A program made the position numbers and the translations under genes. A model generated the notes under the pieces. It was not told the origin of the DNA. It saw nothing but the letters and a program-made list of their open reading frames with translations, and did no database searches. From contig JAGSHD010000015.1 in assembly GCA_023954715.1 (NCBI GenBank), positions 59,772-123,771 on the forward strand: 64,000 nt of DNA, written 5' to 3'. Of the stretch, positions 8,474 through 44,624 are shown piece after piece. Numbering within the stretch: position 1 is the stretch's first letter; every line of letters starts with the position of its first letter. The stretch comes from Candidatus Cloacimonadota bacterium (GTDB lineage Bacteria; Muiribacteriota; UBA6191).

Positions 8474-9739
8474 TTATGTCTTTCGTGGTTTTGGCTTTGC
8501 CGCTGGAAACAATATATTGTTTAAAATCAGTCGATATCCTGGTGAATTTTTATGTAATTTAAGATCTGTTGGAGGATCTGAAACCGCATGAGAAAAATCT
8601 TCTGGATCATGTCCACCATAAAAAGAAAAAGTGCCTTTTCCGAATCTACCGTGAATGTATTTGTAAACGTCTTTATCAATGGTTTTGCCTAGTTTAATCA
8701 CTGATGGCTTTAAGACTTTACCGCTAAATGATGTTGTTTGCCCTAAAAAACCTTTTACCACATGCCTATGGTTTTGATTTAACATGGCAGGAATCGGATC
8801 AAACTTTGCACTAAATTCAAATAATTCAAAGTCTTCGCGCTCAGGGTGAAATCTATTTTCATATAAAGAGACATCAATTGTTGAAAACTCATATACATTA
8901 GGATCTAAATCAAGTGTAAAATTTTCAAAGGCTAAAGTTTGACGAAAATCCAATCTTTTTTGGATGTTTTTTGAGATCGGTGTTCCATCTATTCTTGGAT
9001 CAACAATATCTAAACTTAACGATGCTAAACCAACATCAATGCTATCTGTTGCAGAGCACATAGCAAACATAAACCCACCTTTAGATACATACTCTTGTAC
9101 CATTTTAGCCACATCTCCAAACCAGGTTTGCACACTATTGTAACCAGCCTCTTTCGAAAGTTTTCTAAAAAGTTGGACTTTTTTTAAGTACCATGGAGCA
9201 TTTTTAAAAGAGCGATAGAACTTTCCGTACTGCCCACTAAAGTCTTCATGATGTAAATGCAACCAATCATAATCAAAGAGCTTACCAGCTAAAACTTCTT
9301 CATTCCATAGCTTGTCATAAGGTATTTTTGCATAGTTCATAACCAAGGTTACAGCATCGTCCCATGGGTCAGATGATTTTTGAGTGTAAACTGCAATTTT
9401 TGGAGCCTTCTCTAATTGAACCTTCCCCATGTTATTTTTTTCTATGATAGCGTCAATTTGTTGCTTTGTAGACTCATCAATAACTATTCCAGACACACCA
9501 TATAAAGTAGCCTGTAATAGGAGGTTTTCTGTGTAAGGCATTAAAAAGCTCCCACCCTTAAAGTTCAATAACCATTGTACTTTATGTGATTGCTCTAAAG
9601 CGAAATACGCCAGACCATACGCTCTTAGATGATCAGTTTGTGATTCGTCCATCTCTATCAAAAAATATTGATTTGTAAATGAGACCTGTATACTCAATAA
9701 CAAAAGTATTGGGTAAAGCACTCGTTTAAATAAGTTCAT
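8474..9739 (-). CDS. Conserved exported protein (resembles Bacteroidetes proteins often labelled asparagine synthetase B)
   Basis: N-term signal; 'MDESQTDHLRAYGLAYFALEQSHKVQWLLNFKGGSFLMPY' recalled as similar to that family; not verified. Confidence 0.45.
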   Translation of the reverse strand: MNLFKRVLYPILLLLSIQVSFTNQYFLIEMDESQTDHLRAYGLAYFALEQSHKVQWLLNFKGGSFLMPYTENLLLQATLYGVSGIVIDESTKQQIDAIIEKNNMGKVQLEKAPKIAVYTQKSSDPWDDAVTLVMNYAKIPYDKLWNEEVLAGKLFDYDWLHLHHEDFSGQYGKFYRSFKNAPWYLKKVQLFRKLSKEAGYNSVQTWFGDVAKMVQEYVSKGGFMFAMCSATDSIDVGLASLSLDIVDPRIDGTPISKNIQKRLDFRQTLAFENFTLDLDPNVYEFSTIDVSLYENRFHPEREDFELFEFSAKFDPIPAMLNQNHRHVVKGFLGQTTSFSGKVLKPSVIKLGKTIDKDVYKYIHGRFGKGTFSFYGGHDPEDFSHAVSDPPTDLKLHKNSPGYRLILNNILFPAAKPKPRKT

Positions 9740-28932: not shown

Positions 28933-29376
28933 ACATAAAATGCACTTTTTTGCACTTTTTTGTTAGTCTTTGTACTTTTTTGTTTATTTTTGGAGGAAAT
29001 ATTTTTAATCAATTCTGAACTTTAAAAGTCCAAATCTCAATTTTTCAATCAAATTTTATGGCTTTTTAGTGTTGTATTTAATACATATAAAGCCTCAACT
29101 TAAATCAAATATACCTAGCCTGACTAAAAAAGTTATATTTAGATCCCTCCGCTATAGTCTGAATAAGCTCATAATAATTGTTGTAACATACAATCTACTG
29201 AACAAATAAAACCCCATGTTGATGGGCTTTGTATTTTTCATGATCCTGTTTGAAGGGGAAAGATTTTGAAAACTTAAGTCTTTGATTAATACAAATATAG
29301 AGTCTTTATATTTGGAGGGAATATATGATAGGGCTACTTAGTATATTGAAGTAGCTCATACTCCAAGTAAATAATT

Positions 29377-40388: not shown

Positions 40389-41495
40389 TTAAACTTCATA
40401 CATGAGGTAAAAAATTCCTCCAAAAAACAACCCTACTAATAAATTTATTAATTTTACTTTTAAAAAGTCACTCCTAGAGTGGGCTAACAAAGGAATTAAA
40501 CCATGACCATCTTGCACAATAGAAGATGTTAAAATAATAGAAAAGCCTACTTTGTTTTCTAAGAATAAAGTTAAAAATATTAAATGTGGCCCTGACTCGG
40601 GAACCATACCCAACAATCCTGAGACAAACAATACTACCATAGGATGTTTAGTGATCAGCTCTTGAAGGTATTGCCATTCAAAGGTTAAGTGAATAATACT
40701 AAAAGCAGCTATAGTCCAAAGAAAGATTCTAGGCAGATGAGCTTTTACAATATGTTTTAAGAAGTGCTCTTGCAAAAAATGAGACGGGGACTCAATGATA
40801 ATGATTGAGCCAAAAACTAAAATTAAACCCAAAAAAACTTTTGCAAAGACACTGCTTTCGTGCCCTAATACACCTTCAATTTGTAGATAACAAAATGCAA
40901 TCAAAACAGCCAAAAGAGAGAAACGTAAGAAAAACTCCTTGCTCCAATCCGTTTTAATGCGAGATTTATCAAAAAACTTCCATGATTCTTCGCCATGATG
41001 TAACTCTAAATGACAGGGGTCTGAGTTTTGATCGCTCCCTAGAAGTAAATCAGTTAGCCATCCCACAAAAATTGATAAGAAAAAAAGCCCTAGTGTCATT
41101 TGAAAGGCTAACTCTGGAGCCCTAGCAAAAAACACATAAGCCTCATCTCCACTAGTTACAATCGCTGTAGTGACCAATGCTCCTAGTCCAATAAGACCAT
41201 GACTATAAAAAGTTACAACTATAAAAGTCCCAAAGCATCCTGGAGTAGCTCCTAGTAAAGCACATAAAATATATTGCTTCCATTTAGAGCCTTTAAACAC
41301 CCCTTCTAAATGACCTTTTGAGCGAACATGAAGATACTCTACTAATAGCATCATGAACAAAACCATTAAAGCGATAATAATGGAGTGCTCTAATATCTCT
41401 AATGCAGGTGAAAATATCTGATTAGATGCTTCAGAAGTATGCTGTAGATGATTATGGGCATCATGTAAATGATTGTGGTGATGTAGATCGTTCAT
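40389..41495 (-). CDS. ArsP_2-type 10-TM putative heavy-metal (manganese) exporter
   Basis: His-rich N-term; 'ALLGATPGCFGTFIVVTFYSHGLIGLGALVTTAIVTSGDEAYVFFARAP', 'GMVPESGPHLIFLTLF...SSIVQDGHGLIPLLAHSR'. Confidence 0.75.
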   Translation of the reverse strand: MNDLHHHNHLHDAHNHLQHTSEASNQIFSPALEILEHSIIIALMVLFMMLLVEYLHVRSKGHLEGVFKGSKWKQYILCALLGATPGCFGTFIVVTFYSHGLIGLGALVTTAIVTSGDEAYVFFARAPELAFQMTLGLFFLSIFVGWLTDLLLGSDQNSDPCHLELHHGEESWKFFDKSRIKTDWSKEFFLRFSLLAVLIAFCYLQIEGVLGHESSVFAKVFLGLILVFGSIIIIESPSHFLQEHFLKHIVKAHLPRIFLWTIAAFSIIHLTFEWQYLQELITKHPMVVLFVSGLLGMVPESGPHLIFLTLFLENKVGFSIILTSSIVQDGHGLIPLLAHSRSDFLKVKLINLLVGLFFGGIFYLMYEV

Positions 41496-41822: not shown

Positions 41823-41852
41823 TTGACATTACTTATTTTTCACTGTTACAAT
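41823..41852 (+). promoter_or_regulatory. Sigma70-type promoter of candidate sRNA
   Basis: TTGACA (41823-41828), 18-bp spacer, TACAAT (41847-41852). Confidence 0.65.
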
Positions 41853-41859
41853 GTAAATG

Positions 41860-41946
41860 GATAGTTAATTCTACTCCACATAGTTGATCGTGATTTCTGG
41901 GTTCCCCCACCCCCCCATACCCAATGTCACGATCAACTTTTTTTTA
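41860..41946 (+). ncRNA. Candidate sRNA with 12-bp terminator stem and C-tract loop
   Basis: Promoter just upstream; AGTTGATCGTGA(882-893)/TCACGATCAACT(927-938) then T8; loop TTCCCCCACCCCCCCATACC. Confidence 0.65.
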
Positions 41947-41989
41947 TGTCTAAGTGTTTTACTCCCTTATATTTTTTGTTAAGATATTT

Positions 41990-42216
41990 GTAACTATTCA
42001 GCTATAATTTTTCAATTTATTCACAAAGGTTGATTACAAATAGGTTTTTGATCATTGTTATATTTTGCATTTACAGCTTTTGAAGTGTAGTGAACTACTC
42101 GAAAAAAGCTTTAGATACAAAAGATGATTATGAGCTAAACCGCATCATTAAAGAAAAAAATGCGAAAAAATTGTATGCTCTTCGCCTTTTATCGAAGAGA
42201 TAACCTGAATAATTAC
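41990..42216 (+). mobile_element. MITE-like element copy 3 (227 bp) with perfect 8-bp TSD AGATATTT
   Basis: GTAACTATTCAG.../...CTGAATAATTAC TIRs; AGATATTT immediately on both sides. Confidence 0.9.
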
Positions 42217-42302
42217 AGATATTTTTAATATAACAAATACGCTCTTACAATCATTCAACCATAGCAACGATATTTCAAGATCTAATTCTTAGGAGAGTTT
42301 CA

Positions 42303-44624
42303 TTGAAAGCTTCAACAAATAAAGACTCATCAAACAAAGATATTTTAGCCGTTGCCAAAGAAGAGCCATCCACATTAAAAACGAAACCTAGATGCACAAC
42401 AGCAGGAGGACTACCTGCTATCTTTTCAACCTTTAAGCAAATTAGGGCCGAAACAGGAGTCATTAAAGGAATTCAACTCTTGTTAAAAGCAAACCAAAGC
42501 TGTGGTTTTGACTGCCCTGGTTGCGCCTGGCCTGATCCAAAACATGATGATAAGGCTATAACAGAGTTTTGTGAAAATGGAGTCAAAGCTATTGCTGAAG
42601 AAGCAAGTTTCAAACGAGTTAACAAAGACTTTTTCAAACACTACTCTGTCGCAGAATTGAGCCACAAGTCAGATATTTGGTTAAGTAAACAAGGCCGCTT
42701 GACTGAACCAATGATATTAAAAGAAGGCTCTACCCACTATGAACCTATCTCCTGGGATGAAGCCTATAATTTGATAGCAAAGAAATTAAACTCCTTAAAT
42801 AATCCCGATGAAGCTATCTTTTATACTTCAGGAAGAGCCAGTAATGAAGCTGCATTTTTATACCAATTATTTGTAAGAGAATTTGGAACCAATAATCTAC
42901 CCGATTGCTCTAACTTGTGCCACGAATCTAGTGGTCAAGCTCTCATGGAAACAATTGGAATAGGAAAAGGCACAGTAACTCTAGAAGATTTCCCAAAAGC
43001 AGATCTTATAATTGTGTTTGGACAAAACCCTGCTACAAATCACCCTAGAATGCTCTCATCCTTAGAAGAAGCAAAACTCAATGGTACAAAAATTGTCAGT
43101 GTTAACCCATTGAATGAAGCTGGGTTAGACCGTTTCAAACACCCTCAGAATGTGCTTGGACTCTTTGGAAAGGGACAAAAAATAGCTAACTTAAAACTAA
43201 ATATTAAAATCAATGGAGATGCTGCTTTAATCAAAGGTACAATCAAGCTCATGCTAGATCAGGAGAAAATAGCCCCTGGCACTATTTTTAATCTAGAGTT
43301 TATAAAAAAATATACCCAAGGATTTGATGAATTTATCAGTCTAATAGAAAAAACCACGTGGGAGGATATCCTTAGTCAAACAGGTCTACAAATGCAACAA
43401 ATCGAAGAGTTTGCTAAACTCTGTATAAACTCAAACGCATCGATTGCCTGTTGGGCTATGGGTTTAACCCAGCATGAAAATGGGGTAGCGGCCATTCAAG
43501 AAATAGTCAATTTGTTGCTTCTTGGAGGACATTTGGGGCGAGAGGGCGCTGGTGTATGTCCTGTACGTGGTCACTCTAATGTACAGGGTGATCGAACCAT
43601 GGGAATTTGGGAAAAGCCCAGAGAGCAGTTTTTACAAAAGTTAGAACAAGAGTTCCAACTAAGCTTCAATCGAAAAAATGGATACAATGCAGTAGAAGCA
43701 ATTCAAGCCATGTTAGATAAAAAATCAAAGGTCTTTATAGCTTTAGGAGGCAACTTTTTATCTGCTGCTCCAGATACTCTAGCTACTGCACAAGCATTCA
43801 ACAATTGTAATTTAACTGTACAAATTTCTACAAAGCTCAACCGATCCCATTTAATTACTGGAAAAACTGGCCTCCTTCTTCCCTGTTTAGGCAGAACAGA
43901 TTTAGATCTTCAAAAAAATGTGAAACAATTTGTTACCGTAGAAAACTCAATGGGAATCGTACATCGATCTGCTGGTAACTTTACTCCACCTTCACAGCAC
44001 TTAAAAAGTGAAGTGGAGATTGTGAGTAAAATTGCCCAAGCCACTAAGAAAAATTCACCGATTCAATGGCAATGGCTTAGTGAAGACTACCACAGAATTA
44101 GAGACTCAATTTCACGAGTAATACCAGGTTTTGAAAACTATAATGAACGAGTGTATGACAAAGATGGCTTTGATCTCCCAAACCCACCTAAAGATAACCT
44201 TACTTTTACTACACCATCCAAAAAGGCCTGTTTCACCGCACATGATCTTCCTAAACTTAAAATAGAAAAAGATCAATTTATCATGATGACTATACGTACC
44301 CACGATCAGTTCAATACTACAATATATGGTATGGATGATAGATACAGAGGTATATTTAATGATCGAAGAGTAATCTTAGTTAATCCTGAAGATTTAAAAA
44401 ACTTAGGTTTAAAAAATAAAGATATCGTAGATATTACGAGCCATCACAAAGGTAAAACAAGAGAAGTAAAAAGGTTCACAGCAATTTTATACGATATACC
44501 AAAAGGTTGCGTTGCTACTTACTTCCCTGAAGCCAATCCATTGGTACCTTTAGATCAATATGCAAAAGGTAGTATGACCCCCTGTTATAAGTCTGTAATT
44601 GTTAGCTTTAAAGCTACTAGCTAG
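42303..44624 (+). CDS. FdhF/YdeP family molybdopterin oxidoreductase
   Basis: 'AGGLPAIFSTFKQIRAETGVIKGIQLLLKANQSCGFDCPGCAWPDPKHDDKAITEFCENGVKAIAEEA'; 'GREGAGVCPVRGHSNVQGDRTMGIWE'. Confidence 0.93.
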   Translation: MKASTNKDSSNKDILAVAKEEPSTLKTKPRCTTAGGLPAIFSTFKQIRAETGVIKGIQLLLKANQSCGFDCPGCAWPDPKHDDKAITEFCENGVKAIAEEASFKRVNKDFFKHYSVAELSHKSDIWLSKQGRLTEPMILKEGSTHYEPISWDEAYNLIAKKLNSLNNPDEAIFYTSGRASNEAAFLYQLFVREFGTNNLPDCSNLCHESSGQALMETIGIGKGTVTLEDFPKADLIIVFGQNPATNHPRMLSSLEEAKLNGTKIVSVNPLNEAGLDRFKHPQNVLGLFGKGQKIANLKLNIKINGDAALIKGTIKLMLDQEKIAPGTIFNLEFIKKYTQGFDEFISLIEKTTWEDILSQTGLQMQQIEEFAKLCINSNASIACWAMGLTQHENGVAAIQEIVNLLLLGGHLGREGAGVCPVRGHSNVQGDRTMGIWEKPREQFLQKLEQEFQLSFNRKNGYNAVEAIQAMLDKKSKVFIALGGNFLSAAPDTLATAQAFNNCNLTVQISTKLNRSHLITGKTGLLLPCLGRTDLDLQKNVKQFVTVENSMGIVHRSAGNFTPPSQHLKSEVEIVSKIAQATKKNSPIQWQWLSEDYHRIRDSISRVIPGFENYNERVYDKDGFDLPNPPKDNLTFTTPSKKACFTAHDLPKLKIEKDQFIMMTIRTHDQFNTTIYGMDDRYRGIFNDRRVILVNPEDLKNLGLKNKDIVDITSHHKGKTREVKRFTAILYDIPKGCVATYFPEANPLVPLDQYAKGSMTPCYKSVIVSFKATS

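Follow-up and report, generated by a model that had tools for sequence, protein, structure and literature searches.

The question raised by this locus is whether the intergenic DNA between a permease gene and a molybdopterin oxidoreductase gene encodes a stand-alone small RNA (sRNA) with a C-rich loop, as claimed in the initial annotation, and which mRNA such an RNA would control. The locus was analysed within a window of 64 kb, i.e., the whole stretch of DNA under study, and coordinates given without a prefix are window positions. The genome of the window is designated G000; G001 (MAG NORP72, NVVD01000001.1, NCBI label Candidatus Cloacimonadota bacterium NORP72) was the only congener compared.

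Anatomy of the Predicted sRNA Gene

Promoter scanning, folding and inspection of the sequence revealed the following elements.

41823..41828, + strand: −35 hexamer TTGACA (promoter scan), identical in G001
41847..41852, + strand: −10 hexamer TACAAT, preceded by TGT (extended −10), at a spacer of 18 nt (promoter scan); TAAAAT in G001 at the same 18-nt spacing
41859..41945, + strand: predicted sRNA of ~87 nt, its start (41859 or 41860) placed from the −10 hexamer; backed by a fold z-score of −7.8 and by ~96% identical columns with G001
41859..41877, + strand: 5′ hairpin GGAUAGUUAAUUCUACUCC of the predicted sRNA (fold; comparison with G001)
41882..41894, + strand: 5′ arm of the 13-pair terminator stem; the last pair is U-G here and C-G in G001
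41898..41902, + strand: UGGGU arm of a nested stem (fold)
41903..41918, + strand: sRNA loop UCCCCCACCCCCCCAU, the proposed seed for pairing with G-runs (sequence and fold); C5-A-C6 in G001
41919..41923, + strand: ACCCA arm of the nested stem (fold)
41926..41938, + strand: 3′ arm of the terminator stem (fold)
41938..41945, + strand: T8 tract of the intrinsic terminator (read from the sequence)

The annotated TTGACA-18-TACAAT promoter, nested TGGGT/ACCCA stem, loop and T8 tract were thus all recovered where they had been placed. The promoter reached a consensus score of 11/12, had the TG of an extended −10 element, and was the top site of the promoter scan between 40000 and 44000. The terminator hairpin (AGTTGATCGTGA/TCACGATCAACT) is composed of 12 perfect base pairs, in line with the 12-bp stem described before, or of 13 if the G-U pair is counted, and a T8 tract follows it. 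Across the whole window, the + strand holds no other perfect 12-bp hairpin ahead of a T-tail; in Markov sequence, ~0.1 such hairpins would be expected per strand. With a T run extending to 41945, the transcript would measure about 86–87 nt, agreeing with the ~86 nt and the start at ~41860 given initially. Folding of the predicted sRNA yielded z-scores between −6.9 and −7.8, with none of 200 shuffled sequences being equally stable, and left a C-run unpaired inside the hairpin loop, as is characteristic of anti-Shine-Dalgarno sRNAs with C-rich loops. The G001 homolog was likewise strongly folded.

The absence of an ORF held up, insofar as no credible frame was found in the sRNA; the longest on the + strand encodes 32 aa, starts with TTG and runs through the terminator. 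The Rfam search suggested in the initial annotation was run and returned no family at the gathering threshold across the whole window, while a lax threshold gave only weak chance-level matches on the opposite strand, far below the cut-off. Judged by covariance models at the gathering score, the sRNA does not appear to belong by descent to RepG, 6C or another Rfam family.

Conservation in the Congener and in the Phylum

The sRNA is single-copy in G000 and has one homolog in G001, which is syntenic, lying between the genes of an ArsP_2-type permease and an FdhF/YdeP-family oxidoreductase. About 96% of the transcript columns agree; in the promoter, the −35 hexamer is identical and the −10 hexamer differs by one base, with the 18-nt spacing kept, and the C-tract reads C5-A-C7 in G000 and C5-A-C6 in G001. 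Loop and promoter, whose conservation in relatives had been proposed as a check, are therefore both retained in the congener. All differences in the 5′ hairpin are on its 3′ side and leave the UAG/CUA and GG/CC pairs in place, and the lone difference within the terminator stem, C-G to U-G, is tolerable in RNA. The genes flanking the sRNA are 72–74% identical to their G001 counterparts, and the remaining intergenic DNA could not be aligned. Where the 64 kb could be aligned, 80-nt windows had a mean identity to G001 of 76% and a 99th percentile of 91%; of those reaching 92% or more, the sRNA was the sole place that is not an ORF.

The simplest reading of this conservation would be a single transcription unit under strong selection. 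Having a promoter and an intrinsic terminator of its own, lacking an ORF and being conserved as a unit apart from its flanks, the locus has the general features of an sRNA gene, and on sequence evidence the stand-alone C-rich-loop sRNA claimed initially appears well supported. It had been cautioned that the C-tract might be a sequencing or assembly artefact; this was rejected because C5-A-C6 is present at the same place in an independent MAG.

That the conserved unit is a DNA element, namely an inverted-repeat protein site and not an RNA gene, would accord with the perfect, palindromic and almost invariant inverted repeat. We consider this very improbable, given the correctly spaced, conserved promoter hexamers, the T8 tail and the conserved asymmetric loop; moreover, the single stem difference (U-G versus C-G) leaves the bases paired in RNA while destroying the symmetry of the DNA. 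An i-motif/G-quadruplex reading of the C/G-tract was likewise dismissed, the four-tract GGG pattern, by eye, seeming to be lost with C6 in G001.

In a wider search, a covariance model built from the two sequences was run on 40 genomes of the phylum and matched G000 and G001 only; the sRNA was not found in the other 38, two of which are of the same family. No plasmid match was obtained. A pattern match on a viral contig (L060) was taken as chance, since the surrounding hairpin differs and matching stem and promoter are lacking. A second exact GGGGGTGGGGG site in G000 (C6:91071) is antisense within a coding gene, and no paralog of the sRNA was found. The sRNA thus seems to represent a family that is new by descent and, as far as the compared genomes show, confined to one genus, while by kind it would belong to the known regulators with C-rich loops. 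The co-conservation is based on two genomes and counts as one evolutionary comparison, because only these two carry the sRNA.

Genomic Neighbourhood of the Predicted sRNA Gene

The following features border the sRNA gene in the window.

40389..41495, − strand: ArsP_2/arsenic-efflux-type permease, divergent upstream neighbour (annotation search)
41981..42225, no strand assigned: MITE separating sRNA and YdeP-family gene, outside the sRNA; length ~245 bp, with ~40 copies in G000
42303..44624, + strand: FdhF/YdeP-family molybdopterin oxidoreductase, downstream neighbour (TIGR01701, E 2e-277), with a TTG start behind AGGAG

Both the mobile MITE and the YdeP-type molybdoenzyme named initially are accordingly real. 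The MITE ends in imperfect terminal repeats of 21 bp and has a long inverted repeat in its interior; no copies were found in G001 to G003 (the congener and two genomes of the same family), and only in the G000 species does it separate the sRNA from the oxidoreductase gene. The sRNA 5′ end (41858–41867) is complementary to the left end of the MITE (41991–42000) over 10 nt including one G-U pair, which is likely chance, since this part of the sRNA is retained in G001, for which no MITE copy was found. Another dispersed repeat of about 50 nt, at 29193–29247, matches three separate places on the congener's contig.

The concern that the hairpin might merely terminate a longer upstream transcript was dispelled: the upstream gene runs in the opposite direction, and no + strand ORF of at least 60 aa is present between 37549 and 42302.

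The main rival to a trans-acting sRNA is a cis-acting leader, in which the promoter would drive the YdeP-family gene, the hairpin would be an attenuator or leaky terminator with read-through setting expression, and the short RNA would be the terminated leader. In both species, the element precedes the orthologous oxidoreductase gene in the same order and orientation, the G001 terminator ends roughly 65 nt before the oxidoreductase ATG, and a consensus scan revealed no other promoter on that strand in between, although promoters that are not of the sigma70 type would be missed by such scans. In G000, however, the MITE of about 245 bp now lies between hairpin and gene and offers a promoter-like site of 10/12 at its left end (41979–42008; promoter scan). 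Further, the 5′ part of about 23 nt contains, by eye, no conserved competitor to undo the 13-pair stem, and a conserved loop of C residues is not needed for an attenuator. RNAalifold and minimum free energy folding gave the terminator form alone, with no alternative antiterminator pairing evident by eye. We regard a leader function as unlikely to be the main explanation, and note that the trans and cis roles are not exclusive.

A Candidate Target with a G8 Ribosome-Binding Site

Since a loop of C residues should meet runs of G, all GGGGGGG sequences in both genomes were listed; the pattern search for targets of the trans-acting sRNA comprised perfect runs of at least seven G (G7+) and ATG-linked GGGGKGG sites in G000 and G001. 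When the G7+ runs were read in context one by one, most proved to overlap coding genes in sense or antisense orientation. In each genome, exactly one run occupies the position of a plausible ribosome-binding site, ahead of an ATG that opens a reading frame; the genes concerned are orthologs.

G000:C35:152095-152303: candidate target gene, encoding a 65-aa Cys-rich protein; G8 run at 152095, AAGGGGGGGGACGTTTATG
G001:C17:8766-8972: ortholog of the candidate target; G8 run at 8965, TATGGGGGGGGAGCGTTTATG

The 65-aa protein carries CxCG ... CxxC, is 92% identical between G000 and G001, and has no Pfam or NCBIfam family. In both genomes, a BMC shell protein and an adjacent RnfC/Complex I 51K-like protein are encoded beside the candidate target gene (L152 8469-10333, L153 5747-7653). 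Cys-rich proteins of 60–100 aa sharing a LELRxC motif form a family without Pfam entry, with three paralogs per genome in the genus.

LELRxC Cys-rich family members: L206 1476-1698; L209, L211 (G000); L207, L210, L212 (G001); L208 (G002)

The duplex predicted for loop and target has an energy of −18.8 kcal/mol in G000 and −19.6 kcal/mol in G001. None of 68 background starts in G000 (mean about −4.4, sd about 2.8, minimum −14.8 kcal/mol) and none of 127 in G001 (mean about −4.2, sd about 2.8, minimum −14.0 kcal/mol) reached the value of the target. In G001, the target sequence GUAUGGGGGG is a perfect 10-nt complement of CCCCCCAUAC in the sRNA. Two-strand folds showed a gain of only about 4.5–4.8 kcal/mol over separate folding, such folds being unable to represent a loop-only (kissing) contact. 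The G8 start thus provides, in both species, a conserved candidate target elsewhere in the genome to which the sRNA is predicted to be complementary.

A G-run at the start codon is absent from both paralogs of the gene in each of G000 and G001, as well as from the G002 relative, in which no sRNA was detectable. The upstream neighbour of the candidate target gene, which we take to be an S1-like protein in G001 and an ABC-type permease in G000, differs between the two species; hence, the G8 run outlasted a change of neighbourhood. Being near a conserved start region, it may nevertheless have been kept for ribosome binding only. The sequence GGGGTGGCGG, common to L144 and L112, was rejected as a target, as it represents a coding motif (WGGGP) inside the gene and not at its start.

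The pairing of the C-rich loop with G-rich Shine-Dalgarno regions, as proposed initially, has thereby gained one specific candidate common to both species, but a general excess of sites was not seen: GGGGKGG-N(1-12)-ATG occurred 33 times in G000 and 27 times in G001, versus 53 and 41 times, respectively, in reversed controls. A broad anti-Shine-Dalgarno role is consequently not supported; the sRNA more likely has a small set of targets than a global function. The sRNA could instead act in trans mainly on other partners, either several mRNAs with shorter G-runs or a poly-C RNA-binding protein, the G8 gene being incidental. The C-rich-loop sRNAs 6C and RNAIII do act on several mRNAs (PMC10470900, PMC2837412), and GGGGG-N(3-11)-ATG sites number 254 in G000 and 184 in G001; GGGGKGG, however, is not enriched near ATG, and in each genome only the G8 gene stands out as an outlier. 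This makes other main targets rather improbable.

Proposed Mode of Action

Our preferred reading, to which we assign a probability of about 0.6, is a genus-specific, independently transcribed sRNA of ~87 nt that represses the gene of the 65-aa Cys-rich protein in trans via pairing of its loop with G8. The sRNA would be made from its own promoter, its terminator hairpin presenting the C-rich loop. This loop would dock on the accessible G8 tract serving as ribosome-binding site of the Cys-rich protein gene and block binding of the 30S subunit, so that translation would not start. Hfq, which is encoded in both G000 and G001, may assist the pairing. The comparison of the two species shows that the sRNA gene has kept its anatomy, with promoter, loop and terminator, and that orthologous genes bear the G-run at their start; production of the sRNA, pairing and repression we infer from sequence. 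Since the C-run fits the G8 at the ribosome-binding site in both species, the sRNA probably switches the gene off.

If true, the sRNA would represent a new family in a marine lineage that is uncultured and for which no described sRNA was found, and would come with a specific candidate target.

Comparison with Known Systems

RepG of Helicobacter pylori is an intergenic sRNA whose C/U-rich terminator loop base-pairs with a homopolymeric run of G located in the 5′ UTR of a single mRNA (PMC8295292). The predicted sRNA shares with it the intergenic location and, in the predicted pairing, the use of a C-rich terminator loop against a homopolymeric G-run. In contrast to RepG, where the G-run is further upstream, the run of eight G in both species is at the ribosome-binding site; the loop is C5-A-C6/7 instead of C/U-rich, and the host encodes Hfq. 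No sequence relation to RepG was detected in the Rfam search.

In the mycobacterial 6C/B11 sRNA, a loop with an unpaired C-run contacts the G6 tract of a target 5′ UTR, and repression was shown by compensatory mutation (PMC10470900). An unpaired C-run loop facing a G-tract is also predicted here, but 6C/B11 has two C-rich loops whereas the present sRNA has one loop with two C-tracts and no Rfam match. Staphylococcus aureus RNAIII and sRNAs with UCCC motifs dock with C-rich hairpin loops on Shine-Dalgarno regions (PMC2837412), similar to the contact predicted in this study; RNAIII, unlike the present sRNA, is long and multi-domain and has several targets; the related sRNAs rely on short UCCC motifs.

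We tentatively suggest, giving this slightly less than even odds, a RepG-like, genus-specific sRNA with one dedicated target, in which C-loop and G8 have been kept as a matched pair, as a further, unrelated origin of G-run control. If true, this suggests that the control of homopolymeric G-runs by C-rich loops has arisen independently of RepG and 6C/B11. Among the systems compared, the sRNA would most likely work like Helicobacter RepG or mycobacterial 6C/B11.
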